In this document: piece by piece, positions 1-38,712 of the stretch
How positions within the stretch are numbered: position 1 is the stretch's first letter
Layout of the letters: every line of letters begins with the position of its first letter
Assembly: GCF_032050975.1 (NCBI RefSeq)
Contig: NZ_CP116967.1
Span: 3,593,001-3,657,000, forward strand
Reading direction: 5' to 3'
Source: Candidatus Nitrospira allomarina
GTDB lineage: Bacteria > Nitrospirota > Nitrospiria > Nitrospirales > UBA8639
DNA length: 64,000 nt
The notes under the pieces: model-generated
The model's input: the letters and a program-made list of their open reading frames with translations, nothing else
Told to the model about the DNA's origin: nothing
Databases searched by the model: none
Translations under genes and position numbers: made by a program

Positions 1-1450
1 GAAACATCGTGTTAGCGACCCGACGAATATCGGCCTTGGTCACCTGATCCAATCGATCAATGGACCGGAATAACTCGCGCCAATCTCCAAACAACATCTG
101 GTAATCAGTCAGATGCATAGCCAGACCAAGGTTATTATTCAACGCCCGAACCAACCCCGCTTTGGCACGGGTGCGAAATCGTGCCAGTTCCTCATCAGAG
201 ACATCCTGCGTTTTCAGCCGGTCAAATTCTTCCCGTAACGCCTGCTGGACCGTATCATTCGTCACACCACGGCCGGGAACAGCATAGGCCATCCACACGT
301 GCGGATACTTGTCCCCCGGATATTCCCCGTAAGCTCCCACCGACACTGCGATGCGTTTGTCCCGAATCATCGATCGATATAATCGAGAGGTCCGCCCATT
401 CGTCAATATATCGTCGATCGCATCGTATACCGGTTGATCAGCATGGGTCACGGGTGGCTTATGATAACCCTCCACATATAAGGGTTGGGAAGGATCCTGC
501 AGCTTCACAATTTTTTCTGCGATGGAAGGAGGCTCCACGATTCGAAGCGGAGGAGGCACGGGAGCCGAGGGGATGCGATTGAAATATTTTTCAAGAATCG
601 GGATGACCGCCTCCGCTTTCACATCTCCGACGATCGCTGTCACCAAATTCGTCGGCACGTACTGCTCCTCATAAAACTTTTTTGCGTCGGTCATTGTGTA
701 GGATTGAATATCACTGGCAAAACCAATCACCGGATGATGATACGGATGAGCCATATAAGCCGTCGCAACAAACTGTTCGAGCAACCGGCCGAAAGGTTGG
801 CTTTCCGTGCGCATGCGACGCTCTTCCATGACGACGTCCCGTTCTTCGTAAAACTCCCGAAAAACCGGATGCAAAAACCGCTCCGACTCCAAATATGCAA
901 ACAGTTCGACTTTATTGGCCGGAAGAGCATAAAAATATCCAGTGACATCAGCACCGGTAAATGCATTTAACGCAACCCCACCCTCCCGTTCAATGATATC
1001 GCCGAACTCATTTTTCACCACATACGAGGAAGCCTGTTGTTGTCGCTCCTTAAAAACCGCATAGAGGCGCTCCACCTTCTCCGGGTCAGGATCGGAAGCA
1101 AACTTCTCCGTTTGATAAGCCTGGTAAGCCTCTTCCAATGCCTCTAACGCAACCTTCTCTGCATCATAATCAGTCGTCCCGATGTGGGGAGTACCTTTAA
1201 AGGCCATATGTTCAAACATATGAGCCAGTCCCGTTTGCCCCATGATTTCCTGAGCCGAACCCACATTGACTCGCGTCATAAAGGCAAAGACAGGCGCCAC
1301 TGGACGTTCCACAATAATAAAGGTCCACCCGTTCTTTAACGTATGCCGGGTCACACGTTGCTCAAAGGAGGCTAGATCCTGACCAAACACCGTCCCCGCG
1401 CAGACGCACCACACCAGACCCAGAAGTCCGAGCCTCTTACTCCATCGCAT
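1..1450 (-). CDS. M16 family zinc metallopeptidase, secreted (3' end outside window)
   Basis: The protein is an inverzincin (insulinase/pitrilysin type) that probably cleaves peptides in the periplasm. The start chosen is an ATG at 1450; an ATG further upstream runs into a stop within a few codons. The N-terminus is basic then hydrophobic and ends in an A/Q-D junction, like a signal peptide of about 24 residues. The inverted zinc motif HMFEH lies at residues 77-81, followed by the usual family stretch with NAFTGADVTGY and a VVMEERRMR block near residue 200. About 483 residues are inside the window. The last ones read like the C-terminal helix of an M16 domain (DQVTKADIRRVANTMF), so little is missing. 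No partner M16 gene is visible here; in many genomes a second one lies downstream, which would be to the left of this window. Confidence 0.9.
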   Translation of the reverse strand, partial: MRWSKRLGLLGLVWCVCAGTVFGQDLASFEQRVTRHTLKNGWTFIIVERPVAPVFAFMTRVNVGSAQEIMGQTGLAHMFEHMAFKGTPHIGTTDYDAEKVALEALEEAYQAYQTEKFASDPDPEKVERLYAVFKERQQQASSYVVKNEFGDIIEREGGVALNAFTGADVTGYFYALPANKVELFAYLESERFLHPVFREFYEERDVVMEERRMRTESQPFGRLLEQFVATAYMAHPYHHPVIGFASDIQSYTMTDAKKFYEEQYVPTNLVTAIVGDVKAEAVIPILEKYFNRIPSAPVPPPLRIVEPPSIAEKIVKLQDPSQPLYVEGYHKPPVTHADQPVYDAIDDILTNGRTSRLYRSMIRDKRIAVSVGAYGEYPGDKYPHVWMAYAVPGRGVTNDTVQQALREEFDRLKTQDVSDEELARFRTRAKAGLVRALNNNLGLAMHLTDYQMLFGDWRELFRSIDRLDQVTKADIRRVANTMF

Positions 1451-22687: not shown

Positions 22688-23242
22688 TCACTTCAGGATT
22701 TTCAACTCTTTCTCGATGTTGCCCTGACATTTCGTGCAAATCCCATGCGTCAGGGAAGGCACAACCTTGCTGCCAAGAAGATCAAGATAATTCACCACCT
22801 CCTCCAACTCGACCCATCCCTGGTTCGGGAGACGGACTTTCATACACCAACTACAGATCGTCAGAAAGGGCTCTCCTCTCTGTACATCGGGATCGAGGAA
22901 CAATACAGGGTCTCGTGGAACCACACGGATGGGGTGAGTCGAGAACATCAGTTCGTCCTCCTGAAGAGGAGACACCATGAGTTGAAAATACCGGCGACAT
23001 ACCGGGGAATCGCAGCGAAACTTGAAAACCGCGGCTTGCTGCTTCTTTCTCACGACTTTAAAAATGTGGCGGTATATCTGACGGAGTTCTTCTCCTTCAA
23101 TGAAATCCCAGAGAGACTTTCCAATGACATACGCGCGATTCAGATGCCCTCCGGCATTTTGGCAGGCAAACTGTAACCAACCCTCATTGATAAACCGAAT
23201 GCAATCGGCTTTATCGATGCTATATTGAATCGACGTGTGCAT
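22688..23242 (-). CDS. PAS-like sensor-type protein with C-terminal Cys motifs
   Basis: A 184-aa cytoplasmic protein. The first part resembles a PAS sensor fold (INEGWLQFACQNAGG, GKSLWDFIEGEELRQIYRHIF, FRCDSPVCRRYFQLMVSPL). The C-terminal part carries two Cys motifs (ICSWCMKVR and GICTKC) that could bind zinc or another metal. No kinase, cyclase or DNA-binding domain is fused, so it would work through a partner. CGGAGG sits seven bases before ATG 23242. I do not know a named function. Confidence 0.65.
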   Translation of the reverse strand: MHTSIQYSIDKADCIRFINEGWLQFACQNAGGHLNRAYVIGKSLWDFIEGEELRQIYRHIFKVVRKKQQAAVFKFRCDSPVCRRYFQLMVSPLQEDELMFSTHPIRVVPRDPVLFLDPDVQRGEPFLTICSWCMKVRLPNQGWVELEEVVNYLDLLGSKVVPSLTHGICTKCQGNIEKELKILK

Positions 23243-23480
23243 GGTGGACCTCCGGGTGGGAGAGGGCCTCCCACTACAATCGTGAAGGAGGGGTCATCAT
23301 ACGCCAAATGGGAAAGCAGTTCAAAATCGTTCTAAAAGCCCAGGCCCAGGGGTTTCAGGACACTCAACACCAGACCCATTCCGCCGTTCGTGTTCCCTTC
23401 TTCTGGAAGAGATTTATTCATTCTTGCTAGAGTGCGTCAGGGCTCCGCTGTGTGCGTCATCTATTATGAGGAGGGGCTGA

Positions 23481-24452
23481 ATGAAATATGTCCATCTTGG
23501 TCGATCCGGGTTGAAAGTCAGCCGGTTGTGTCTGGGCACGATGAATTTCGGACCGGAAACCACAGAAGCCGACAGCGGAACCATCATGGATACCGCACTG
23601 GAACTCGGCATTAATTTTTTCGATACCGCAAACGTGTATGGCTGGGAAGTGGGGGAAGGCATTACCGAACAGATCATCGGTCGTTGGTTTGCGCAAGGAG
23701 GCCAACGCCGGGAAAGAGTCGTCCTGGCCACCAAAGTGTTCGGGCGAATGGGAGACTGGCCCAACCAATCCCGTTTGTCCGCACTCCATATCAAGCGCGC
23801 CTGTGAAGCCAGTTTGCGCCGGCTCCAAACCGATTATATCGACCTGTATCAGATGCACCATATTGACCGGCATTCGCCATGGGAGGAAATCTGGCAGGCC
23901 ATGGAACAACTCATGCGCGAGGGGAAAATCTTATACGTGGGGAGTAGTAACTTTGCGGGGTGGCATCTGGCGCAAGCACAGGAAATGGCCAGGCACCGGA
24001 ATTTCCTGGGACTGGTGGCGAAGCAAAGTTTGTACAACTTAAATGACCGCATGATTGAGCTGGAGGTCATTCCGGCCTGTGAAGCGTACGGCATTGGCTT
24101 AATTCCCTGGAGTCCGGTCGCCCGCGGCCTCCTGGCCGGGGCGCTTGAACCCGCGACCAGCGGACGGCGGGCCGATGAGGATCTGCGAAAGAACGTGGAA
24201 AAATTCCGGCCACGGTTGGAAGCCTACGAAGCGCTGTGCCGGGAAGTAGGCGAAACGCCTGCCCATATCGCCATGGCATGGCTGCTTCATCAACCAGCCG
24301 TCACGGCACCCATCATCGGGCCCCGAACTCTGGATCAGTTACAGGGCGCCATGCGCACCTTCGACATCACACTTTCCAAAGAGGTGTTGAAAAAATTGGA
24401 TACCATTTTCCCCGGACCAGGAGGCCCCGCACCCGAAGCTTACGCCTGGTGA
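23481..24452 (+). CDS. Aldo/keto reductase
   Basis: A 323-aa NADPH-dependent (beta/alpha)8 oxidoreductase. The catalytic tetrad is visible as Asp48 and Tyr53 (FFDTANVYG), Lys85 (LATKVFG) and the His of YQMHHID near residue 126. The NADPH-binding end shows PIIGPRTLDQLQG. It is of the Kv-beta/YghZ-like group, which reduces methylglyoxal and other aldehydes. A GAGGAGGGG site precedes ATG 23481. It has no operon partner. Confidence 0.92.
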   Translation: MKYVHLGRSGLKVSRLCLGTMNFGPETTEADSGTIMDTALELGINFFDTANVYGWEVGEGITEQIIGRWFAQGGQRRERVVLATKVFGRMGDWPNQSRLSALHIKRACEASLRRLQTDYIDLYQMHHIDRHSPWEEIWQAMEQLMREGKILYVGSSNFAGWHLAQAQEMARHRNFLGLVAKQSLYNLNDRMIELEVIPACEAYGIGLIPWSPVARGLLAGALEPATSGRRADEDLRKNVEKFRPRLEAYEALCREVGETPAHIAMAWLLHQPAVTAPIIGPRTLDQLQGAMRTFDITLSKEVLKKLDTIFPGPGGPAPEAYAW

Positions 24453-24709
24453 GACCCCTCGCCGGGTGTCAAATATTTGCAACTTGTGTACAAAGGGATA
24501 AAGCATCGACAAAATATTGACGGGTGCGTTGACCCCACGCCGGCCTCACCACCATTCGAATTGCTTACAACTCAACAGGTTGACCTCCCCTGAATCACAA
24601 CCAACCGTTCACGTCATCTTTGGCATACCAGTTGCTCTAAAGAACAAAGAGGAAGTCCACTCACAACCAGGTGGAGTCGGGCTCAGGGCCTCAAGCCAAG
24701 GAGGATGTC

Positions 24710-25114
24710 ATGCGAACGACCATCCCCATTCACGCATTCACTATCGTTTTAGCCCTTATTCTCTTTGGAGGAGAAATCGCCACAGCGGAAATGCCGCCAC
24801 CTGAACCGGATGAGGCCTATCTGGTCGACGAAGATATCAATATTGTCACCGGCCTCTACATTCGAGAATATTCCCTCCGCAAAGACGGCATCGTGGATTA
24901 CAAAACCGCCCGCCAAATTCTCATCTCGGAATATAATGAACATTGGAATTCGGTTGTCGAAACCAAAGAATGGCCGTTATTCTACTGGCATGATGTGAAC
25001 CGGGACGGACATTGGACCATGTATGTCGACCGAAAGGTCAAAGGCTGCACCTGCGATATCGTCCCCTATGAAGTGAAGACGGAGGACGCGATGGCACAAA
25101 AAGATCCTTTTTAA
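24710..25114 (+). CDS. Secreted hypothetical protein with EF-hand-like loop
   Basis: A 134-aa exported protein. AAGGAGG lies five bases before ATG 24710. The signal peptide ends near GGEIATAE. The mature part is rich in D, E, W and Y. The segment DVNRDGHWTMYVD matches the DxNxDG pattern of a calcium-binding EF-hand or dockerin loop, but only one such loop is present and no flanking pair can be seen. Two Cys in KGCTCD could form a disulfide or bind metal. I do not recognise the family. Confidence 0.62.
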   Translation: MRTTIPIHAFTIVLALILFGGEIATAEMPPPEPDEAYLVDEDINIVTGLYIREYSLRKDGIVDYKTARQILISEYNEHWNSVVETKEWPLFYWHDVNRDGHWTMYVDRKVKGCTCDIVPYEVKTEDAMAQKDPF

Positions 25115-25171
25115 CTAGGAAAGTTTTAAATAAGCGCCTTGGCCGTATTCACATACCTCTCTGTACGCTCC

Positions 25172-25236
25172 GCCCGTCCAAGCGGCGGCGGCCTTTCCTT
25201 TGAGGAGCCTCAGGACAGGGCTAGACGGGCCTTTTT
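25172..25236 (+). terminator. Possible terminator with long loop
   Basis: GCCCGTC (25172-25178) pairs with GACGGGC (25224-25230), followed directly by CTTTTT. The 45-base loop is itself GC-rich. It lies 58 bases after the secreted protein gene. The rest of 25115-25560 shows no gene; a GTTCAACAGCCTGTTAGA fragment near 25307 looks like the end of a small repeat. Confidence 0.45.
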
Positions 25237-25560
25237 GAACATCCTGCTTCGCTCAAAGAAGATCGTAAAATTCTGAATCCCCATAAGCTCTCAGAAGAAC
25301 TTTGAGGTTCAACAGCCTGTTAGACACTTGCGCGACTCGACCCAACACAACCCGGTGCTCCACAGGACCAGGTGCCACGCTCCCTCCCCTTCTCCTGAAA
25401 ATCGACATGCTTCCTGCTTCCCTGCACAGCAAACGAATCGCCGGTTGACCGGTGAATGAATTCGCCATCGTGGCGAAGTACACTCTTGGTCCGGTTTCTT
25501 GCTAATCTAATAAAAGATCCATCGACTAGTTCTGTAGGGTTTCAAGGAAAGGAGACATTC

Positions 25561-25824
25561 ATGGGGCATTCATTAGAACAGCTGCAAAAGATTGCCGATG
25601 ATCTAAAACGCCAACGTGACGAGCTTCAGGTAAAATTACACCTGGCCAAAGCGGATGCGCGTGATGAATGGGCGAAACTTGAAACACGGTGGGAAGACGT
25701 CAAGACCAAGATGGAAGCGGTTAAAAAAGAAGCGAGTCACACCACCGAATCCGTGTCCTCCGGGCTGGGACTGGTGCTGGATGAACTAAAAAAAGGCTAC
25801 GACAACATTCGCAAGACATTGTAA
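25561..25824 (+). CDS. Small coiled-coil protein
   Basis: An 87-aa soluble protein, almost entirely helical with heptad patterning (LEQLQKIADDLKRQRDELQVKL, WAKLETRWEDVKTKMEAVKKEA). AAAGGAG precedes ATG 25561. There is no membrane segment. Similar short coiled-coil proteins occur in other environmental bacteria without known function. It is probably its own transcript, 120 bases before deoC. Confidence 0.65.
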   Translation: MGHSLEQLQKIADDLKRQRDELQVKLHLAKADARDEWAKLETRWEDVKTKMEAVKKEASHTTESVSSGLGLVLDELKKGYDNIRKTL

Positions 25825-25944
25825 TCCGTGCCCTATCAGCGCATCTTTGATGTCTGATCCGGGTACCAATACGACACGGTCAGGTCATAGGAATTTTCGA
25901 AGGGAATATCGCAACCTCTCGAACCACTCATCGGAGCCTGCAGG

Positions 25945-26619
25945 ATGACCCGCGACGAATTCACTAAAATTATTGACCATACCGCGTTAAAACCCGACAC
26001 CACAAAAGATCAGATACGACAGCTCTGCGAAGAAGCCATGACGTTCGGCTTTGGGGCGGTCTGCGTCGCCCCGCTCTGGGTTCCGTTTGCCACGCGTTGC
26101 CTGACGGGATCTCCCGTCCGGATTGCCACGGTTATTGGCTTTCCTCACGGCAACACGCTTCCGGATGTGAAAGCCTACGAGGCCAAACTGGCCATTGAAG
26201 CCGGAGCGCATGAAGTAGATATGGTGATCCAGATTGGCTTGCTTCGAGCGGGCAATCATGGAGCCGTCCTGGACGATATTCAGGGCGTCATGAACGTCGC
26301 GCGTCGTGTCTCCCGATCAAAAATCCTGGTCAAGGTCATTCTGGAAACATCGCTCTTAAATAAGGAAGAACAACAAACAGGTTGCCAACTCGTGGAGAAG
26401 GCCGGAGCGGATTATGTGAAAACGTCGACCGGATTTACCGGTCGCCACGTCACTATTGAAGAGGTGGGGTTTTTGCGGAGTATTGTCGGAACACGGGTGG
26501 GCGTCAAGGCGGCCGGAGGCATCCGCGACCTGATCACTGCGGTGGCGTTGGTCAATGCCGGAGCGTCCCGCCTGGGGAGTTCCTCATCCGTGTCCATCAT
26601 GCACATGTGGCCGGGATAA
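25945..26619 (+). CDS. deoC: Deoxyribose-phosphate aldolase
   Basis: It splits 2-deoxyribose-5-phosphate into glyceraldehyde-3-phosphate and acetaldehyde in nucleoside salvage. The 224-aa protein has IDHTALKPDTT at the start, the proton-relay Asp in AHEVDMVI, the substrate Lys in KILVKVILETS and the Schiff-base Lys in DYVKTSTGF. A phosphate-binding GGIRD and an ASRLGSSSS end follow. The length is normal. It is not with other deo genes. Confidence 0.95.
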   Translation: MTRDEFTKIIDHTALKPDTTKDQIRQLCEEAMTFGFGAVCVAPLWVPFATRCLTGSPVRIATVIGFPHGNTLPDVKAYEAKLAIEAGAHEVDMVIQIGLLRAGNHGAVLDDIQGVMNVARRVSRSKILVKVILETSLLNKEEQQTGCQLVEKAGADYVKTSTGFTGRHVTIEEVGFLRSIVGTRVGVKAAGGIRDLITAVALVNAGASRLGSSSSVSIMHMWPG

Positions 26620-26770
26620 ATTTTACCTTCCTTAAAAATTTTCTCTCCCTCTCCTCGACATTATTATAGATAGTCATTCCAATAAACTTCCGCTGTGTTC
26701 GGAGCAAAGTCATGCCTGCTTCCACCCACATCTTACTTACTGAAAATGATGTGAATCGTTGGATAGAATG

Positions 26771-27004
26771 CCGGGTTTCGGCCCGGCAGCCGAAGTCCTT
26801 TTGTTTCGGCAAAAGGACCCAAAACCATTGACGCCCCGCCTGGCCTCATTGAAGAGGAGGGACGCCAACCTTTAGAAGAGCGGACCAACTCGCTCTGCTC
26901 AAACAAGGTCCGCTAAATGCGAAGAGCGTCCCTCCCTAGGGCCAGCCGGCAGGCGTCGGATTAACGGTTCGCCTGGTGATTTGGGCGTCAGCCCGGTTGG
27001 CCGG
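26771..27004 (-). repeat. Three-hairpin repeat, subfamily A plus half of B (locus 1)
   Basis: In minus orientation the order is a half B unit (26966-27004), long hairpin H1 of type A (GACGCC...GGCGTC ends, 26830-26957), H2 (arms around TTTTGCCGAAACAAAA, 26795-26818) and H3 (CCGGG/CCCGG around CCGAAA, 26771-26786). This is the only copy outside the 38-59 kb cluster. No coding sequence is interrupted. The rest of 26620-27240 shows no gene. Confidence 0.8.
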
Positions 27005-27240
27005 CAACGAACGATGGTGCTTCACCCAACCAGCCAAATTTCGGAATTTATTTGAAATGACCATAAAATAGGGGGGATTCCTTCCTTGCCTTTTCCATTC
27101 ATCAATTCCGCCAGTCGTAAGCGGGAAGTTATGGTTCCAGGCCGTCTCTTTCGTTTCACGTACCCGAGCTTTCCGACTGCCGGCCAGGCGTGCTATCGTC
27201 TCGCCCTCCTGAATGTGTTGACAACAATCTTGAGTCGCCC

Positions 27241-27837
27241 ATGAAAACCGAAGCCACATCTGAAATGGGGAAAGAGGCCCAACATCCCCCCCTCTTGGAT
27301 GAGGTGATGAAGCAGTTAACGGATCATCGCCAGGCCTTTCACGCCTTTCTGACCCGCCGTCTGGGTAATCCGGCCTTTGCCGAAGACCTCCTGCAACAAT
27401 GCTTCATGAAAGCCATGGCCCATTTCCATTCCATCAAAAAGATGGACCGGATCGTCCCCTGGTTCTATCAAATCCTTCGCCATGCGTTGATTGATTATTA
27501 TCGAAGCAAAGAAACGGACACCAAGCGGTTTCAAGCCTTTCTGGTTGAGACCGAGACACTGGGCACCCATCAGGTCCCTTCGCTGGATGAACTGCAACCG
27601 ACGATTTGTGCCTGTCTGGATCGTCTCGTGTTGACCCTCAAACCTGAATATGCCGACATCATTCGCCGGATCGATTTGTCCGGAGAATCGTTGCAATCCG
27701 TCGCCAGGGAGTTACACATCACCACCAATAACCTCACGGTCCGGTTACACCGAGCGCGCCAGGCCTTGCGCAAGTCCCTGGAAGATTCCTGCGGGATTTG
27801 CAGCAAGCATGGGTGCTTGAATTGCACCTGCGAATAA
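27241..27837 (+). CDS. ECF sigma factor with Cys-rich C-terminal tail (CorE-like)
   Basis: A 198-aa extracytoplasmic-function sigma factor. Region 2 is visible as FAEDLLQQCFMKAMAHF and the RHALIDYYR stretch; region 4 as SLQSVARELHITTNNLTVRLHRARQALR. The last 15 residues form a metal-site-like tail with Cys184, Cys187, His190, Cys192, Cys195 and Cys197. This recalls CorE of Myxococcus xanthus, where a Cys-rich tail senses copper and replaces an anti-sigma factor. No anti-sigma gene is adjacent. CopZ, a small membrane protein and CopA follow, which supports control of copper export. ATG 27241 begins the conserved protein. Confidence 0.85.
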   Translation: MKTEATSEMGKEAQHPPLLDEVMKQLTDHRQAFHAFLTRRLGNPAFAEDLLQQCFMKAMAHFHSIKKMDRIVPWFYQILRHALIDYYRSKETDTKRFQAFLVETETLGTHQVPSLDELQPTICACLDRLVLTLKPEYADIIRRIDLSGESLQSVARELHITTNNLTVRLHRARQALRKSLEDSCGICSKHGCLNCTCE

Positions 27838-27928
27838 GCCCCAACTCCCCTTCTCCCTACATCTCCCACATCTTCTTCCTCCTTTTTGCTCAATTTTCTT
27901 CCCGTTCCAGTTTTAAATAATCCCTCGC

Positions 27929-27969
27929 TGTAAGAATCAGGAAAGAGTTCCGTCTATATAAGCAGACGG
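27929..27969 (+). promoter_or_regulatory. Candidate ECF promoter and palindrome before copZ
   Basis: TGTAAG (27929-27934) and CGTCTA (27951-27956) are spaced by 16 bases, like a -35/-10 pair for an ECF sigma factor. The -10 element is also the left arm of a palindrome CCGTCT-N8-AGACGG (27950-27969). It lies 65-105 bases before the CopZ start. The palindrome could be an operator or early hairpin. Confidence 0.35.
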
Positions 27970-28033
27970 GCATGTCGGACACCGAACAGGACATGCACCA
28001 CACACAAACCAATTTCAACAGACGGAGGTTCCC

Positions 28034-28252
28034 ATGGAAGATCTCACACTCACAATTGAAGGCATGAGCTGCGGGCATTGTGTGCAAGGTATCACCAACA
28101 TCCTTTCCAAGTTGAAGGGCGTGAAGGTGGATCAGGTGAAAATTGGGGAGGCCACCCTTGGCTTTTATCCGCAGACCATCACACCCGACCAAATTATTCA
28201 CGCGATCGAGGAGGAAGGCTACAAAGCCCGGCTCAGCATGGAGGCCGTATGA
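28034..28252 (+). CDS. copZ: CopZ-like copper chaperone (HMA domain)
   Basis: A 72-aa heavy-metal-associated domain protein that carries Cu(I) in the cytoplasm. The metal motif is GMSCGHC near residue 10-16, and the ferredoxin-like fold ends with HAIEEEGYKARL. An ACGGAGG site precedes the ATG. Its stop overlaps the start of the next small gene (ATGA). Copper delivery to the CopA pump encoded 360 bases downstream is the expected role. Confidence 0.92.
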   Translation: MEDLTLTIEGMSCGHCVQGITNILSKLKGVKVDQVKIGEATLGFYPQTITPDQIIHAIEEEGYKARLSMEAV

Positions 28253-28389
28253 ACACCATCGAATGGATCGTCATCATCGGTGGGCTATCGGCTATTGCCT
28301 GGGTCAATTGGTACTTCTTCATGGCTCAAGCTGTTGCAGCCAAGCGGGTGCAGAGGAAGACGGAACTCAGGACATCAGCCCCACGATGA
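28249..28389 (+). CDS. 46-aa single-span membrane protein in the copper operon
   Basis: A small frame overlapping copZ by four bases (ATGA), hence translationally coupled. It encodes one membrane helix (IEWIVIIGGLSAIAWVNWYFF) and a short basic tail. A nearly identical helix begins some small membrane-anchored cupredoxin-domain proteins, as far as I recall. This copy has no cupredoxin domain, so it may be a shortened relative or a separate small regulator of the pump. The overlap with copZ and the uninterrupted frame support a real gene. Confidence 0.7.
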   Translation: MNTIEWIVIIGGLSAIAWVNWYFFMAQAVAAKRVQRKTELRTSAPR

Positions 28390-28421
28390 ACGATCAATGA
28401 AACCGTAACGCCCTAGCTTCC

Positions 28422-28510
28422 TTGTCATCCTGAGTGCAACGAAGAATCTCGTTCAGCGTGGAAGTCTGCACCTGGGCACAGATCCTTCGCCGAACGGCTC
28501 AGGATGACAA
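28422..28510. repeat. CATCCTGAG-type inverted repeat
   Basis: Perfect 13-bp arms (TTGTCATCCTGAG at 28422-28434, CTCAGGATGACAA at 28498-28510) with an inner matching pair (CGAAGAATCT / AGATCCTTCG). It lies between the small membrane protein and copA. Partial copies recur at 38.7, 48.9, 49.4, 54.1, 58.6 and 60.4 kb. Confidence 0.75.
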
Positions 28511-28615
28511 CGGGGTGGGAGGCCAAGCAAGAACGTGCAGACTTTTTACATGCCTGAAAATTGAAATCAACAATCTTATCCATCAGCATCGAGCCGACAG
28601 AATAGGAAATCGGAC

Positions 28616-31042
28616 ATGAATACCGTCATCGCCAAACCAGAGAGCAGACGATCACATCCTCCCGTGAGGAAACGGGACGAATCCGCCGACATGAGCCCTC
28701 CCCGACGGGTCAGTCTTTCGGTCGGCGGCATGACCTGCGCCGCCTGCCAAATCCGCGTGCAACGTGCGCTGGACAAAGAACCCGGCGTCATTCAGGCCTC
28801 AGTCAATTTGATGTTGAAATCGGCGGAGGTGACCTACGATCCGGTCACCACGACACCGGATGCGGTCAGACGGGCCATTACACAGACCGGATATGAAGCG
28901 GAGATCCATTCGTCGGATCACACGGACCAGGATGAGCAGGCACAACAGGAACAAAAGCAGGCGGAGGAATTTCGATCATTTCGCAACAAGGCGGTGGTCA
29001 GCGGAATCCTCGGGGTGGTTGCCATGGTGCTCTCCATGCCGCTCATGAGTGCCGCACCCACACACCCGCACGGTGGGGTGACCGATCCGTTCATGCACTG
29101 GATCATGGGATGGATGACACCCGTTCTGACATCATTCGCTCCCGATCTCTATGCGATACATCCAAACATCCTGGCATTCACCCTGCTCGCCATGACCGTC
29201 TTCGTCATGACCTGGGCAGGCAGACATTTTTATACGCGGGCCTGGGCCGCCTTCCGCCATCATTCCGCCGACATGAATACCCTGGTGGCGGTTGGCACCG
29301 GCGCGGCCTTCCTCTTCTCCCTCCTCGCCACCCTCGCGCCCGAGATCTTTTTGAGGCGAGGCATGGCGCCGGAACTCTATTATGAAGCCGTCATCATGAT
29401 CATTGCGTTGATTTTGACGGGTAATGCACTTGAATCAAGAGCCAAACGCCAAACATCGGCGGCCTTGCGAAAACTCATGACGCTTCAACCCCGAACCGCC
29501 CGGATCATCCGGGATGGCCGGGAACAGGAGATCCCGGTGGAAGACATGCGCACCGGGGACACCGTGCTGGTCCGTCCCGGAGATCGCATCCCCGTGGATG
29601 GCACCTTTCTCGCCGGAACCTGCTCGGTCGACGAATCGATGCTGACGGGAGAATCCATGCCCGTCGACAAACAGCCCGGCGATCGCCTGATCGGAGGCAC
29701 CATGAATACCACCGGCGCGTTTCAGTACCACGCCACGACCTTGGGCTCAGACAGTGTGCTCTCTCGCATAGTGCAACTCATGCGCGAGGCCCAGGGGTCA
29801 CGTGCGCCCATTCAAAAACTGGCCGACCGTGTCAGCGGGATTTTTGTTCCCGTGGTTCTCTCATTGGCGATTGCGACATTTATGGTGTGGTTTGTGGTGG
29901 CGGATACCGCCCCTGCCATTCGCGCCCTGGTTGCCGCCGTGTCGGTACTGATCATCGCCTGCCCCTGTGCGATGGGATTGGCCGTGCCCACAGCCGTCAT
30001 GGTGGCTACCGGAAAAGGAGCCGACCTGGGCATACTCATCAAAGGTGGAGAAGCGCTCCAACGGGCAAGCCAGGTCACGACCATCGTCATGGACAAAACC
30101 GGGACGCTCACCGAAGGACAACCGGCCGTCACCGAAATTCTGTCGGCCCCCGGTACCACACACACCGCACAAGAAATCCTTCGTCTCGTCGCCTCGGTGG
30201 AACGTTCATCGGAACATCCGCTCGGCCAAGCCATCGTGCGGCATGCCACAACCCAGAAATACCCCTTGTCTCCGGTGCACGCGTTTCAAGCGATGACGGG
30301 ACGGGGTGCCGTGGGAGTGGTCGAAGACTACAAAGTCGCCGTGGGAAACCAGGCCCTGATGTCTGAGTTGGGAATCCAGACCGGCGCAATTCAACAGGAT
30401 GTCGAGCGGTTCGCCAGAGAAGGGAAAACCCCCGTGTATGTGGGCATCGACGGAACCGTGGCCGCTTTAGTGGCCATTGCCGACCCGCTGAAAGCCTCGT
30501 CTCGTGAGGTTGTCGACCGCTTGCACCGGCTGGGGTATCAGGTGATGATGCTCACGGGCGACCATCAACGCACCGCAGAAGCCGTGGCACAAATGGCCGG
30601 GATCACACGGGTCGTGGCGGGCGTCTTACCCGAAGGAAAGGTGGCGGAAATCACGCGGCTCCAGGCAAAAGGAGAAGTCGTCGCCATGGTCGGTGACGGC
30701 ATGAACGACGCACCCGCCCTCGCCCAGGCGGATATCGGCATTGCCATGGGAGCAGGGTCCGATATTGCCATCGAAGCCGGCGATGTCACCCTCATGCGCA
30801 ACGATCTGCGAGCGGTCGGGTCCGCCATCGAGTTGGCCCGGCAGACGATGAAGACCATGAAGCAAAATTTGTTCTGGGCCTTCATTTATAATGTCGTGGG
30901 CATCCCGGTTGCGGCCGGTATCCTCTACCCCATCTGGGGCATCATGCTCAGCCCCATCCTGGCCAGTGCCGCCATGGCCTTCAGCTCCGTCAGTGTCGTC
31001 ACCAACAGCCTCCGCCTCCGCATGTGGTCGCCGGAGAACTGA
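28616..31042 (+). CDS. copA: Copper-exporting P1B-type ATPase
   Basis: An 808-aa Cu(I) efflux pump of the inner membrane. One N-terminal metal-binding domain has GGMTCAAC near residue 40. The actuator loop carries LTGES. The membrane metal site is the CPC motif in [15 protein letters not shown] (about residue 447). The phosphorylated Asp lies in DKTGTLTEG (about 493), followed by the SEHPLG His-Pro of P1B pumps and [10 protein letters not shown] (about 692). An unusual Q/E-rich linker ([14 protein letters not shown]) joins the HMA domain to the first helix. It belongs functionally with CopZ and the Cys-tailed sigma factor, but is separated from copZ by a repeat hairpin. Confidence 0.95.
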
Positions 31043-31072
31043 GGATCGTCAGCCAACTTGATGGGCCCAGGC

Positions 31073-31106
31073 AGCCGGGAAGAAACGAATCCATTTCCTC
31101 CCGGCT
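31073..31106 (+). terminator. Hairpin after copA
   Basis: AGCCGGGA (31073-31080) pairs with TCCCGGCT (31099-31106), 30 bases after the copA stop. No T run follows. The remainder up to 31421 shows no convincing gene. Confidence 0.5.
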
Positions 31107-31421
31107 TCTCATCGTTCCGGTATCTGGCTTCAGGAATTGGAGCCAACGTTTTTTATTAGCTCTCACAACAGCGTTCCGGCTGATCTGTTGTCTCAACATA
31201 TCTCGAATCCTTTTCAACGCTGTCGGCACGCCATGCCACACAAAGGGCTCACGGATTTGCCCTCGTCAGAGGCCAGCCATATGTCGCGTGTCTAACCTTT
31301 TCGTTTTTTTCTCCTTCCCAATCCTTATATTTCGCCTTCTGACGGAAGTGGAAGAACTTTGCCAACCTTGGAAGGAACGCCCATTTGATACAATTATGGG
31401 TTACCCCTGGACAGAGACACT

Positions 31422-32438
31422 ATGACTTCTTTTGCACCTGAAACCGCATTGATCCAAATGACACCCTACGGCCTGTACTGTCCTCAGGGGAGGTTTTACA
31501 TCGATCCGGTCCGGGGACCGGTCGAGCGGGCGGTCATCACCCACGGACATGCCGATCATGCCAGAAATGTGGCGGAGACCTATTTCAGCACCTTTGGATC
31601 CTCACCGATTTTGCAGAAACGTTTATCCAACGACATTTCTTTGCGCACGGTTTCCTATGGTGACCCGTTTACTCTTGGGGATACCACAGTCAGTTTGCAC
31701 CCGGCCGGCCATATTTTAGGTTCGGCTCAGGTCCGCGTGGAGCATCAAGGAGAGGTCTGGGTGGTGACCGGGGATTTCAAACGGGACCACGATCCGACCT
31801 GTCAGCCGTTTGAGGTTGTTCCCTGCGATACGTTGATCAGCGAAGCCACGTTTGCCCTTCCGATTTATCGTTGGCCTCCTGCCGGGCAGGTGGCCCGGGA
31901 TATCCTGGCGTGGTGGGACGAAAACATCGAACTCCACCAGGTCTCGGTTTTGTTTTGCTACGCATTGGGGAAGGCACAGCGCGTACTGGCTGAGCTCAAT
32001 AAACTCACCGACCGCAAAGTCTTTCTGCATGGTGCCATCCTACCCATCGTGGATATCTATCGAGAAGCGGGCATTGCCATGTTGCCGACGGAGAAAATCG
32101 ACCTCCAGAATAAACGGGACTATGCCGGTGAACTGATCCTAGCCCCTCCCGGCGCGCTGGGATCGCCCTGGATGCGACGGTTTAAAGGCGCTCAGACCGG
32201 GTTTTGTTCAGGCTGGATGCGGGTGCGCGGCAATCGCCGTCGCGGTGGATATGATCGGGGCTTTGTCCTGTCCGATCACGCAGACTGGCCATCGCTGCTG
32301 CAAACGTTTGACGACAGCCGGGCGAGTCGTATCCAACTGCATCACGGATTTTCCGACATCCTGGTGCGGTACCTTGGCGAGCAGGGTGTGGATGCGATCA
32401 GCCTGGGATCACCTTTTGCGGATCCGGAGTCGGTATGA
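31422..32438 (+). CDS. Ligase-associated metallo-beta-lactamase DNA exonuclease
   Basis: A 338-aa nuclease of the beta-CASP/metallo-beta-lactamase group, known as the ligase-associated DNA exonuclease. The metal motif is THGHADHARN (residues about 40-49), with further ligands in HPAGHILGSAQV and GDFKRDHD, and a late VLSDHADWP. It probably trims DNA ends for the ligase encoded next. Its stop overlaps the ligase start by four bases (ATGA). It is the first gene of a four-gene unit. Confidence 0.92.
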   Translation: MTSFAPETALIQMTPYGLYCPQGRFYIDPVRGPVERAVITHGHADHARNVAETYFSTFGSSPILQKRLSNDISLRTVSYGDPFTLGDTTVSLHPAGHILGSAQVRVEHQGEVWVVTGDFKRDHDPTCQPFEVVPCDTLISEATFALPIYRWPPAGQVARDILAWWDENIELHQVSVLFCYALGKAQRVLAELNKLTDRKVFLHGAILPIVDIYREAGIAMLPTEKIDLQNKRDYAGELILAPPGALGSPWMRRFKGAQTGFCSGWMRVRGNRRRGGYDRGFVLSDHADWPSLLQTFDDSRASRIQLHHGFSDILVRYLGEQGVDAISLGSPFADPESV

Positions 32439-34051
32439 AACGGTTTGCCACTCTTTACCGGGCTCTGGATCAGACCACCTCGACGAACATCAAGCTCGCC
32501 GCCCTGCGGCGGTATTTCGAGTCGGTCCCACCGGCCGATGCGGCCTGGGCGGTGTATTTTCTGTCCGGCCGCCGGTTCAAGCGCATGGTGGGACCGGCCA
32601 ATTTGCGGCAGTGGATGATCGAAGCGTCGAATCTTCCGGCCTGGCTGGTGGAGGAAACGTACGCCAGTGTCGGAGACCTGGCTGAAACTGCGGCGCTGTT
32701 GACCGATACCCAAGCGCCAACTTCAATCAACCATTCCCTATCGGAATGGATGGAGAAAGAAATGCTGGTATTAGGCACGGAACCTCCGGACCAACAGCGC
32801 CTGCGGATCCAAAGTTGGTGGCAACATCTGGATTACGATACGTGCTATTTGGTGAATAAACTCCTGACCGGCTCGCTCCGGGTGGGTGTCTCCCATCTTC
32901 TCGTCGCCCGCGCATTAGCCGACAGCGCCAATTTACCTCGGCCGGTCATTCTGCACCGGCTGATGGGCCATTGGGAACCAACCCCACAATTTTATGACCA
33001 ATTGACCGCTCCGGATGACGGCTCCACCGATCATTCCCGCCCGTATCCTTTTTGTCTGGCCAGCCCCTTGGAGCAACAGAAAACTCTTCAGGAGTTGAAG
33101 ACGCAATTGGGAGACGCGCGCGAGTGGTTGGTGGAATGGAAGTGGGATGGCATCCGGGCTCAACTCTTGCGACGGCCCGGGGCCTGTTACATCTGGACCC
33201 GCGGGGAAGAACTGGTCACCGATCGCTATCCTGAAGTGCGGGACGCCGCGTATGGGTTACCTGAAGGCACCGTGCTCGACGGAGAAATCCTGGCCTGGTC
33301 GGAGGAGACAGGCGTGATGCCCTTTACGATCCTGCAACGCCGGCTCGGCCGCAAGACCGTCGGCAAAAAACTTCTGCAAGACATTCCCATTTGTTTCATG
33401 GCCTATGATCTCATCGAGCATGAAGGCCAGGACATGCGTCAGCATACAACGACGGAACGGCGTGCCCTGCTGGATACGCTCCTCAAACAAGCCGGACCGG
33501 TTTTGAAAATTTCACCGCTGCTGTCCGTCACCAGTTGGAAGGAGGCCGCACAGTGGCAGGCGGAATCGCGGGGGCGACTCGTGGAAGGGTTGATGTTGAA
33601 ACACCGGGACGCCCTGTACGAAGTCGGGCGCCGTCGCGGGCATTGGTGGAAATGGAAAATCACCCCTCACACCCTCGATACGGTCATGATGTATGCCCAA
33701 CCCGGCCACGGGCGCCGCGCGAATTTATACACCGACTATACGTTCGGCGTGTGGCAGGATCAGGAATTGGTTCCGATTGCCAAAGCCTATTCCGGACTGA
33801 CCAATGAGGAAATTTATGAACTGGATAAATGGATACGGCAACATACCCTCAAACGATTCGGGCCCGTGCGCTCCGTGAAACCCGAACAAGTTTTTGAATT
33901 GGCCTTCGAGGCGATCAACCGGTCATCCCGCCACAAATCGGGCGTGGCCGTGCGGTTTCCCCGCATTGCCCGATGGCGACGGGACCTTCATCCCAAAGAT
34001 GCCGACTCGCTTGCCGATGTTCATTCCCTGCCCGGGACGGGAACCGCATGA
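32435..34051 (+). CDS. ATP-dependent DNA ligase (LigB/LigC-like)
   Basis: A 538-aa ligase. An N-terminal helical DNA-binding domain (about 1-200) precedes the nucleotidyltransferase core with the adenylated lysine Lys236 in EWKWDGIRAQ. Later motifs are TVLDGEILAW, FMAYDLIEHEG, EGLMLKH and WWKWK, followed by an OB domain. It seals nicks during repair and is distinct from the NAD-dependent replicative enzyme. ATGA overlaps link it to the genes on both sides. Confidence 0.95.
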   Translation: MKRFATLYRALDQTTSTNIKLAALRRYFESVPPADAAWAVYFLSGRRFKRMVGPANLRQWMIEASNLPAWLVEETYASVGDLAETAALLTDTQAPTSINHSLSEWMEKEMLVLGTEPPDQQRLRIQSWWQHLDYDTCYLVNKLLTGSLRVGVSHLLVARALADSANLPRPVILHRLMGHWEPTPQFYDQLTAPDDGSTDHSRPYPFCLASPLEQQKTLQELKTQLGDAREWLVEWKWDGIRAQLLRRPGACYIWTRGEELVTDRYPEVRDAAYGLPEGTVLDGEILAWSEETGVMPFTILQRRLGRKTVGKKLLQDIPICFMAYDLIEHEGQDMRQHTTTERRALLDTLLKQAGPVLKISPLLSVTSWKEAAQWQAESRGRLVEGLMLKHRDALYEVGRRRGHWWKWKITPHTLDTVMMYAQPGHGRRANLYTDYTFGVWQDQELVPIAKAYSGLTNEEIYELDKWIRQHTLKRFGPVRSVKPEQVFELAFEAINRSSRHKSGVAVRFPRIARWRRDLHPKDADSLADVHSLPGTGTA

Positions 34052-36528
34052 GCACAGGCACACGAATCGACGCGTATTTCACGGCAAAAGGGTGGACCCG
34101 ATTCCGCTTTCAACGGGAAGCCTGGCGGGCTTATCGACAAGGGCACTCGGGGTTGATCTATTCCCCGACCGGTAGCGGAAAAACGTTGGCCGCCTGGCTC
34201 GGGCCGGTTCGTCGCGCGCTCGAGACCCCCGCCGTCAACAAAGGGTTGCAGGTGTTGTGGATTACTCCGCTGCGCGCGTTGGCCAACGACCTGGCCGCGA
34301 ATCTACGGGATTCGGTCGAAGCTCTGGATCTGCCCTGGCGAGTGGAGATCCGGACGGGCGATACAGGCTCATCCGTCCGTTCCCGACAACGCCAAAAGCC
34401 TCCGGAGGCTCTCATCACCACCCCCGAAAGTTTGTCATTGCTGTTGAGCTACCCTGAAGGAGAGCAATGGTTTTCCCGACTGCATACCGTGATCGTCGAC
34501 GAATGGCATGAACTCATCGGAACCAAACGCGGGGTTCAGCTTGAATTGTGTCTGGCCCGACTTCGACGCTGGCGGCCGGACCTGCAGACCTGGGGTCTCT
34601 CGGCCACATTGGGGAATGTCGATGAGGCGATGGAGGCCTTGCTGGGTCCGCATGGGAAAGGAATCATGATTCAGGATTCGCAGCCCAAAACCACTCACAT
34701 CGAGGCGGTTCTCCCGGTCTCAGCCGGAAAGTTTCCCTGGAGCGGCCACCTGGGTCTTCAGCTTCTTCCTCAGGTCATCGAACTTTTGGAAAACAGCAAC
34801 ACCACCCTGCTGTTTACCAATACGAGGGCGCAGGCCGAACAGTGGGCGGAAGCCCTTGGTAAAGCCCGGCCCGACTGGACGCCGGAAATCGATCTCCACC
34901 ATGGATCGATCGATCAGTCGTTGCGTCATCGTATCGAGGAAAAATTGCGGGCCGGGGCCGTGCGCTGCGTGGTGTGCACCTCATCTCTGGACCTTGGGGT
35001 GGATTTCAGCACGGTGGACCAGGTGATTCAGGTGGGAAGTCCAAAGGGCATTGCCCGCCTGTTGCAACGGGCCGGCCGCAGCGGCCATCAACCGGGCGCC
35101 GAATCCCGGGTGGTGTGCGTCCCCACGCATGCATTTGAACTCGTCGAAATCGCCGCGGCCCGGCATGCGGCGGAAGCCGGGTTTTTGGAATCCCGACCCC
35201 CTCTCCGGTCGTGTCTGGATGTGCTCGCGCAGCATCTCATTACGATCGCCCTGGGCAGCGGATTTGAACCTGAAGCGATGCGCGAAGAAATTGAATCCAC
35301 AATGGCGTTCGTCGGCCTTCAGGACGCGCAATGGCAATGGGTGTTGGACTTTATCACCCGGGGAGGCCAAACGCTGCAGGGCTATCCGCAGTTCCATAAA
35401 GTCAACGAGAGTCAGGGGGTCTATCGGGTGGAGGATCGACGTCTTGCCGCCCATCACCGGATGAGTATCGGGACGATCACCAGCAACACGGCCATGCAGG
35501 TCCGGTGGCTACGCGGTGGGCTCCTCGGTCATATTGAAGAGGATTTTATCGCCAAGCTCAGAAAAAACGATCGCTTCCTCTTTGCCGGCCGACTGGTCAA
35601 ATTGATGATGGTCCAGGACATGACCGCCTACGTGCAGCATGCGACGAACGGCGCGCGAACGGTCCCTCGATGGCAGGGCGGGCGCATGCCGCTCAGTAGT
35701 GAGTTGGCCGACAGCGTCTTGGCGCTGCTCGGACGATCGCGAACGGAGGACGTCCCCGACCCCGAAATGCGGGCCATCCGGGATCTCCTGACAATCCAAA
35801 GCCGCTGGTCTCGCATCCCCGATCCCTCCATCCTGTTGTGCGAGATGGTGAGGGGACGGGAAGGGGTCAGCCTGTTTTGTTACCCCTTCGGCGGGCGCCT
35901 GGTGCATGAAGGCCTGGCGACCCTCCTGGCCTACAGGTTGACCCGCCTCCGTCCAATGACCTTCAAACTTTCCGCTAACGACTACGGGTTCGAATTATTA
36001 TCGAAAGAAAACCCCGACCTGGACGAAACACTTCTTGCAAAGATGTTGACGACCCAGAATTTGTTGGAGGATCTTCACGGGTGTATGAACACCACAGAAC
36101 TCGCCCGGCGGCAGTTTCGGGATATCGCGCGCATCGCCGGACTCGTTTTTCAGGGATATCCGGGAAAGAATAAAACCACCAAACAGATTCAGGCCTCCAG
36201 TAGTCTCATTTACGATGTGTTCACCGCTTATGATCCCCACAACCTTCTTCTCGATCAAGCGTGGCGCGAGGTCTTGGAGAACCAACTTCAATCGACCCGA
36301 CTGGCCGGGATCCTCGAGCGCATCGTCACTCAAACCCTCGTTCTGACCCATCCCAAACGCCTGACGCCCCTGGCCTTTCCGCTCTGGGCCGAGCGAATAC
36401 AAAGTCAAACGATTTCCAGCGAAACCTGGCGGGAACGCGTGCTGAACATGATTGCCTCGCTGGAGAAGGAATCCCCCGAGCGTCGGAATGTCAAAATGGC
36501 ACGCGTGCTGACCGGTCATCGCAGATGA
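34048..36528 (+). CDS. Ligase-associated DEXH-box helicase (Lhr-core type)
   Basis: An 826-aa superfamily 2 helicase. Motif I is SPTGSGKT, motif II DEWH (VIVDEWHELIG), motif III LSATLG and motif VI QRAGRSGHQPG. A winged-helix part and the Lhr-specific C-terminal domain follow. It translocates on single-stranded DNA. The start is the ATGA overlap with the ligase stop; an open frame runs further upstream but only as a shadow of the ligase. Bacterial clusters of this helicase with ligase, exonuclease and PdeM are known. Confidence 0.95.
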   Translation: MSTGTRIDAYFTAKGWTRFRFQREAWRAYRQGHSGLIYSPTGSGKTLAAWLGPVRRALETPAVNKGLQVLWITPLRALANDLAANLRDSVEALDLPWRVEIRTGDTGSSVRSRQRQKPPEALITTPESLSLLLSYPEGEQWFSRLHTVIVDEWHELIGTKRGVQLELCLARLRRWRPDLQTWGLSATLGNVDEAMEALLGPHGKGIMIQDSQPKTTHIEAVLPVSAGKFPWSGHLGLQLLPQVIELLENSNTTLLFTNTRAQAEQWAEALGKARPDWTPEIDLHHGSIDQSLRHRIEEKLRAGAVRCVVCTSSLDLGVDFSTVDQVIQVGSPKGIARLLQRAGRSGHQPGAESRVVCVPTHAFELVEIAAARHAAEAGFLESRPPLRSCLDVLAQHLITIALGSGFEPEAMREEIESTMAFVGLQDAQWQWVLDFITRGGQTLQGYPQFHKVNESQGVYRVEDRRLAAHHRMSIGTITSNTAMQVRWLRGGLLGHIEEDFIAKLRKNDRFLFAGRLVKLMMVQDMTAYVQHATNGARTVPRWQGGRMPLSSELADSVLALLGRSRTEDVPDPEMRAIRDLLTIQSRWSRIPDPSILLCEMVRGREGVSLFCYPFGGRLVHEGLATLLAYRLTRLRPMTFKLSANDYGFELLSKENPDLDETLLAKMLTTQNLLEDLHGCMNTTELARRQFRDIARIAGLVFQGYPGKNKTTKQIQASSSLIYDVFTAYDPHNLLLDQAWREVLENQLQSTRLAGILERIVTQTLVLTHPKRLTPLAFPLWAERIQSQTISSETWRERVLNMIASLEKESPERRNVKMARVLTGHRR

Positions 36529-38681: not shown

Positions 38682-38712
38682 TGTCATCCTGAGGGAACCG
38701 AAGGATCTAGCA
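38682..38712 (+). repeat. CATCCTGAG-type repeat, half copy
   Basis: The segment TTTGTCATCCTGAGGGAACC followed by GAAGGATCT matches the left arm of the element at 28422; no right arm follows. It begins about 40 bases after rsmJ. Confidence 0.6.

Follow-up and report, generated by a model that had tools for sequence, protein, structure and literature searches.

The closest described counterparts of the protein reported here are CorE and CorE2 of Myxococcus xanthus, extracytoplasmic function (ECF) sigma factors with a C-terminal cysteine-rich domain (CRD). According to the available text of PMC3107203, the tail Cys residues of CorE are 181, 184, 189, 192, 194 and 206: all 21 CRD sigma factors listed in 2011 share Cys 181, 184, 192 and 194, activation by copper depends most on Cys189, and a Cys206 mutant largely resembled the wild type. 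The CXC motif of the sigma2-sigma4 linker is termed essential for both CorE and CorE2 in the accessible part of PMC8999054, where CorE appears as the former ECF44 and, within a newer group, ECF238, is itself unclassified. CorE2 has the tail Cys173-Cys174-X3-Cys-X2-Cys-X-Cys, and the available portion of PMC9023288 states that Cys174, which is not in CorE, decides metal specificity. The same portion describes OrbS of Burkholderia cenocepacia, also an ECF sigma factor with an on-board metal sensor and a C-terminal Cys cluster, which Fe(II) inhibits rather than activates. The kind is already known in Nitrospira: NIDE1902 of Candidatus Nitrospira defluvii, a like factor, is among the 21 CRD sigma factors of PMC3107203, where the accessible text does not give its function, target or promoter and the likeness is known from the listing alone. 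Here we describe a factor of this kind encoded in a 64-kb stretch of the Candidatus Nitrospira allomarina genome (hereafter the window, to whose coordinates all positions refer unless a contig is named; its own genome, G000, is 4.55 Mb in one contig). We put at about 0.82 the probability that it is a copper-activated CorE-type ECF sigma factor that carries its own sensor and controls copZ-copA.

Four genes on the + strand occupy 27241-31042, encoding the ECF sigma factor, CopZ, a 46-aa membrane protein and CopA (Table 1). In the sigma factor, Sigma70_r2 (PF04542, residues 28-90) and Sigma70_r4_2 (PF08281, residues 125-176) exceed the Pfam cut-offs and no sigma3 domain was matched by Pfam; the start at 27241 is backed by 199-aa open frames in two genomes of the same family, G037 and G047. 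The best NCBIfam score is that of SigZ (NF007215/TIGR02959), at 101.5 bits, yet it lies far under the curated cut-off of 212, and the further matches to the factor in G000 are partial, at ~30% identity. A sequence-only reading of this DNA had pointed to a stretch of 14 residues at the end of the protein that holds five Cys and a single His, and had likened this tail to the copper-sensing tails of CorE-type factors. The count is exact: the tail CGICSKHGCLNCTC spans residues 184-197 with the pattern C184-x2-C187-x2-H190-x-C192-x2-C195-x-C197 (written out, C184-GI-C187-SKHG-C192-LN-C195-T-C197). The likeness is borne out by the Cys spacing, the equivalent of Cys189, copper genes as neighbours and a linker CXC, this last being a second Cys pair (CAC, 123-125) between sigma2 and sigma4 that the earlier reading did not mention.

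As in CorE, a sigma2-sigma4 core with a linker CXC is followed by a short Cys-rich tail, copper efflux genes lie nearby and an anti-sigma factor was not found; the CorE neighbour is CuoB, whereas CopZ, the membrane protein and CopA stand beside the factor of the window. The five tail Cys match CorE 181/184/189/192/194 at a constant offset of three. The four family-invariant Cys are therefore present with identical spacing (C184, C187, C195 and C197), C192 is the equivalent of Cys189, and Ser188 occupies the place of CorE2 Cys174. CorE2, according to the part of the literature available, has the same architecture and four tail Cys positions in common when aligned on the final CXC; however, it is the Cys-Cys doublet with Cys174 that sets its response to Cd and Zn, and the window's factor has Ser188 there. 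The Cys spacing of OrbS, from the accessible text of PMC9023288, is unlike that of the window's factor. Because five Cys stand at the CorE offset, the linker holds a CXC and Ser188 takes the place of CorE2 Cys174, the factor is, judged by these residues, CorE-like and of the copper subtype.

These positions are strongly kept among relatives. We collected the best 80 of 241 named-contig relatives, picked by likeness to the query and giving no frequency, the nearest of which are Nitrospirales/Nitrospira records. The five-Cys spacing was found in 76 of these 80 loci and the CXC was flagged in all 80; the exceptions are three loci in which the reading stops before the tail (L154, L188 and L199) and one that diverges past the second Cys (L201). 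An alignment of 55 sequences, the window and 54 chosen from the 80 loci, shows no substitution at any of the seven Cys, and the linker CXC is invariant in every row of two alignments (15/15 and 55/55).

The sequence-only reading had also proposed an ECF promoter, TGTAAG-N16-CGTCTA, ahead of copZ; both its sequence and its spacing proved right, and the motif recurs across phyla. The predicted -35 element TGTAAG (27929-27934, with AAT next) and the -10 element CGTCTA (27951-27956) leave 16 bases from TGTAAG to CGTC and place the site ~70 bases upstream of copZ. In the 64-kb window, TGTAAK-N16-CGTC has one match for 0.13 expected, and at least one match occurred in 12 of 100 shuffles. The window alone is insufficient proof of a copZ promoter; what appears to supply it is conservation. 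TGTAAG-N16-CGTCTA stands before copZ in all seven family loci, the window included, while the bases around it have diverged or given way to other sequence; in a second family of the order TGTAATAAT-N13-CGTCT (that is, TGTAAT-N16-CGTCT) was found in six of six. A sigma-type promoter is thus kept before copZ in 13 of 13 aligned loci, window included.

To extend this comparison, the 80 named loci were scanned for TGTAA(G/T)-N16-CGTC in the flanks of the sigma match, up to 600 bases each way. The scan returned 52 sense matches in 51 loci, versus 3 antisense, where a first-order Markov model expects 0.12 (maximum 1 in 50 runs); spacings of 8-15 and 17-24 gave just 0-4 matches. An unseeded count of 5-mer/4-mer pairs at spacings of 10-22 ranked TGTAA-N17-CGTC first (51/80 loci), as it also did among the 42 loci titled outside Nitrospirota (23/42). 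The site lies 3' of the sigma gene in 44 loci and 5' of it in 8. The ORFs (open reading frames) downstream of it, 51 picked in 50 loci, comprised 24 CopA-like and 3 CopZ-like proteins, the sigma factor itself in 7 cases and 17 proteins that are none of these; the latter include several His-rich proteins, as well as the picks in L150 and L151, where the following copZ was skipped. In Acidipila rosea DSM 103428 (L208), the sigma match ends 13 bases ahead of the site, and a CopA-like ATPase begins 33 bases past it.

The gene order had been described beforehand as a sigma factor preceding copZ, a coupled small membrane protein and copA, and each element could be verified. CopZ has an HMA domain, the membrane protein gene overlaps copZ by four bases (ATGA, its ATG lying within the copZ stop), and CopA, with E1-E2 ATPase, hydrolase and HMA domains in Pfam, scores above the TIGR01511 cut-off; the other P1B ATPases of G000 are 48% and 36% identical to it, one each. 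In five genomes of the family (G000, G029, G037, G047 and G034) the sigma gene is immediately 5' of copZ, the membrane protein gene and copA. In the G019 locus, sigma is preceded by a CusA/CzcA-type pump and separated from copZ by genes for an outer-membrane efflux protein and a multicopper oxidase, and in G032 other reading frames separate sigma from copZ in a locus spread over two contigs. In the second family, where 24 loci were inspected with 1.5-kb flanks, six (L136, L139, L141, L144, L148 and L149) have the sigma gene followed by copZ and then copA.

The 46-aa protein has no Pfam match. A counterpart was detected in five of the six loci of the second family, with long forms in L141, L144, L148 and L149 that bear a cupredoxin domain (PF13473, 61 bits in L148). 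As the second-family protein carries PF13473, the protein of the window looks like a membrane cupredoxin anchor minus its copper domain. A cupredoxin remnant was not found in the window, in six syntenic loci or in L230. The anchor sequence is nevertheless still a gene, because pairwise comparison of seven sequences gave ratios of non-synonymous to synonymous substitution rates (dN/dS) of 0.14-0.57, each of the 21 values being under 1 (simple counting on short sequences). Between the anchor gene and copA lies a gap of 226 bases that contains an inverted repeat, TCATCCTGAG...CTCAGGATGA, with an RNA fold z-score of -4.2. The 10-mer of this repeat occurs five times in the window for 0.19 expected, with copies also at 38684, 48957 and 49427, as a dispersed element resembling the repetitive extragenic palindromic (REP) type; the hairpin may influence read-through into copA.

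We then asked where else in G000 the promoter occurs. Matches to TGTAAGAAT-N13-CGTCTA that differ at three positions or fewer were collected from the genome, and either G or T was accepted after TGTAA. Two of them are full sites, for ~0.02 expected under equal base frequencies: one before copZ and one at C1:4322577 on the minus strand, 0.7 Mb away, ahead of a resistance-nodulation-division (RND) operon (G000:C1 ~4316577-4322604; L230). This operon encodes an adaptor, an HAE1-type permease (NF000282) and a NodT-type outer-membrane protein, the last two above cut-off, so that by family score the pump would be of the AcrAB/MexAB multidrug type and not of the CusA type.

The sigma factor was sought in 48 genomes of the window's family. 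Some match was obtained in 31, of which 15 have a CRD factor by their tail and 16 weak matches only. The type present in the window (A-type) occurs in seven genomes (G000, G029, G037, G047, G034, G019 and, on two contigs, G032), and G035 holds a broken copy. A second type, 49-53% identical and with identical Cys spacing, is found in G034 and G022, and a further set of CRD sigma factors in the family has Phe at the Cys189 position. We compared this distribution with that of the second site by searching for the RND adaptor in 20 genomes of the genus, G019 lying outside the search; ten have a near ortholog. Ahead of it, the second site has no mismatch in G000, G037, G047 and G034 and one in G029; three in G042, G031 and G044 and two in G036, in none of which an A-type sigma factor was found. 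A missed sigma gene is possible in G042, G031 and G044, since these genomes are 66, 73 and 91% complete. Five more distant adaptor homologs have two to four mismatches, and G032 bears the sigma factor, yet has no near adaptor ortholog. The presence of the second site follows that of the sigma factor, but the genomes are related and few.

Most likely, by analogy with M. xanthus CorE, copper binding to the Cys of tail and linker switches the factor on; we infer the identity of the metal, the redox preference and the activation step. For the copper subtype of CorE, Cu(II) is the activating form and Cu(I) the inactivating one. At low copper the factor would be idle, with a tail that probably has no fold. 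Rising copper would be bound by the tail Cys, chiefly Cys192 (CorE Cys189), and probably also by the linker CXC, and the metal-bound factor could then work together with RNA polymerase on its own promoter. Transcription would begin from the predicted site ahead of copZ and yield CopZ, the membrane anchor and, via read-through or a separate promoter, CopA; CopZ would hand Cu(I) to CopA for export. The second promoter of the same type would drive the tripartite RND pump. We lean slightly towards the wider proposal that the copper sigma factor drives both CopZ-CopA and the multidrug-type RND pump, and that TGTAAK-N16-CGTC is a signature of this sigma group across phyla from which regulons may be read out.

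Several observations weigh against this copper-responsive CorE-type reading. The site is missing within 600 bp of sigma in 29 of the 80 loci; in N. moscoviensis (L155), whose factor is 53% identical, there is no site near sigma and no CopA or CopZ within 5 kb. Judged by its bases, the promoter cannot simply be equated with that published for M. xanthus: in the available text of PMC3107203, CorE sites were picked by an AAC in the -35 element, with a G in the -10 element and 16-18 between them, and although the spacing here matches, AAG or AAT stands in place of AAC, and TGTAAC-N16-CGTC, like its TGTAAA form, was found in none of the 80 loci. Either the AAC mismatch is a real difference, as possible control of an RND pump also would be, or the M. 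xanthus sites merit a second look; the TGTAAK-N16-CGTC consensus was not found in print by searches that are blind to figures. Ahead of the sigma gene itself, the TGTAAK -35 element is absent from seven sequences, which show a -10-like CGTC only. The pattern with up to three mismatches is not enriched over the genome (55 matches in G000 versus 92 for the reversed pattern), and position alone speaks for the site. The second site is no worse in G035, whose sigma gene is broken, than in G029 (one mismatch each). Cys206 of CorE has no counterpart in the window's factor. In the AlphaFold model (pLDDT, the predicted local distance difference test, 72.1; pTM, the predicted template modelling score, 0.42), sigma2 and sigma4 are confident and the tail falls under pLDDT 50; this fits a tail that would be folded by metal and proves nothing, the model being silent on a metal site, and none of 16 matched sequences of solved structures extends to the end of the sigma profile or the tail. 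The literature searched held no copper-response or expression data for this lineage.

What else could account for the locus? The main control of copZ-copA might come from a different copper regulator, either an activator of the MerR type or a two-component system of the CusRS type, and leave the sigma factor a minor input. M. xanthus copA itself seems, from the part of the literature available, to be doubly controlled, and G000 does encode a MerR-family protein ~130 kb off, at C1:3754204, which also counts against the sigma factor as the regulator. This protein scores 121 bits to TIGR02044 (CueR); MerR and CueR are its nearest families, MerR ranking first in NCBIfam, and it falls below both cut-offs. 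In the loop that carries Ser in CueR, this protein has a Cys, as divalent-metal sensors do. CueR (TIGR02044) was above cut-off in none of the 48 genomes, and simple patterns revealed no CueR-type dyad at 26620-28700. CsoR (PF02583) has no match in G000; 12 of the 48 family genomes have it, and the eight that carry an A-type sigma gene or its pseudogene all lack it, but G022, with the 49%-identical second type, has both. This absence is suggestive only. Set against a sigma-type promoter kept before copZ in every aligned locus, dominance by such a regulator, sought here among the MerR/CueR and CsoR families, seems unlikely.

Also quite unlikely is that the factor is a CorE relative that uses the same promoter and responds to a different metal (Zn, Cd, Ag or Hg) or redox state. 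The closely similar tail of CorE2 does respond to Cd and Zn, and genomes of the same family carry the CRD sigma factors with Phe at the Cys189 position, so that the choice of metal may vary; however, five positions of the tail here follow CorE and the CorE2 doublet is absent, and the genes beside it encode CopZ and a P1B ATPase of the Cu type, joined in G019 by the multicopper oxidase. A far more remote case is that the factor is held by an anti-sigma protein whose gene lies elsewhere or whose family is unknown, the Cys tail being only structural. The absence of an anti-sigma gene noted earlier held in our searches: Pfam identified no known anti-sigma domain in eight chosen flanking ORFs (22688-36525) or in the block itself. 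Four of the eight are an aldo/keto reductase, a DeoC aldolase, an ATP-dependent DNA ligase and an Lhr-type helicase, though the other four are without a Pfam match and could include an anti-sigma protein of an unknown family; the disordered tail of the model would also suit such an arrangement. Against it, the Cys positions are invariant across phyla, and no anti-sigma factor was found for CorE itself in the available text. A copper-activated factor with its own sensor remains the reading that we prefer.

To the CorE kind, this locus adds an exact match to CorE down to the linker CXC, and it would add a promoter rule that holds across phyla and, likely, a second operon and an origin for the small membrane protein. 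A clear signature makes regulons predictable in Nitrospira-type bacteria, acidobacteria and verrucomicrobia, which here are mostly known as metagenome-assembled genomes only, and metal sensors made of one protein and one promoter could be rebuilt in E. coli. If the link to the multidrug-type pump is true, contact with copper would ready the cells for the efflux of drugs or solvents, a concrete case of metal/drug co-regulation.

Table 1. Features of the copper locus in the window.
Feature	Position	Strand	Basis or remark
Region 5' of sigma gene	27145..27240	+	partly conserved block ending ATCGTC (seven sequences)
CorE-type ECF sigma factor, 198 aa	27241..27837	+	Pfam, alignments
Sigma factor domains	residues: sigma2 28-90; linker CAC (C123, C125); sigma4 125-176; tail extension 177-198		
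Sigma factor C-terminal Cys-rich tail, codons C184 to E198	27790..27834	+	Cys spacing 0-3-8-11-13
copZ promoter (predicted)	27929..27956	+	conserved motif
copZ, copper chaperone, HMA, CxxC	28034..28252	+	Pfam/NCBIfam
46-aa membrane anchor	28249..28389	+	cupredoxin-like N-terminus, copper domain apparently missing; purifying selection
REP-like inverted repeat	28423..28508	.	between anchor gene and copA; strong predicted hairpin
copA, P1B copper-exporting ATPase, one HMA domain	28616..31042	+	above TIGR01511 cut-off

Several further motif copies were put aside. At C1:1977161 a strict-pattern match, spaced N15, falls at the beginning of a gene read as secA, and was judged to be due to chance; C1:3675062, with one mismatch, faces genes on the opposite strand, and C1:1974653, where the core TGTAATAAT-N13-CGTC is followed by CCT for CTA, is antisense inside a gene, and both were rejected. 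Copies with an N15 spacing in G036 and G046 had no copper genes visible downstream.

Additional arrangements of these sigma genes were seen among the relatives. Three loci (L040, L043 and L046) encode two CRD sigma factors each, with Phe at the Cys189 position, and in L046 each copy is preceded by a similar small secreted protein. G034 has two CorE-type sigma factors of differing types back to back (L034 2047-4435). The second-type factor, in G034 and in G022 (L038), adjoins a His-rich protein, in L038 a DUF4396 protein, and L038 also has an efflux-permease-like gene, under cut-off, by this factor. In G019, a remnant of 21 codons of a sigma 3' end lies just 5' of the copZ promoter (L035 11817-11879; C12:86816-86878) and the intact sigma gene is 4 kb upstream, a trace of a duplication or of an insertion splitting sigma from copZ. 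The RND operon of L230 adjoins a pirin-like gene. Finally, at 31422-36528 of the window, a gene without a Pfam match, the ATP-dependent DNA ligase gene and the Lhr-type helicase gene follow one another in a row with overlapping ORFs, as in a DNA-repair-like operon.

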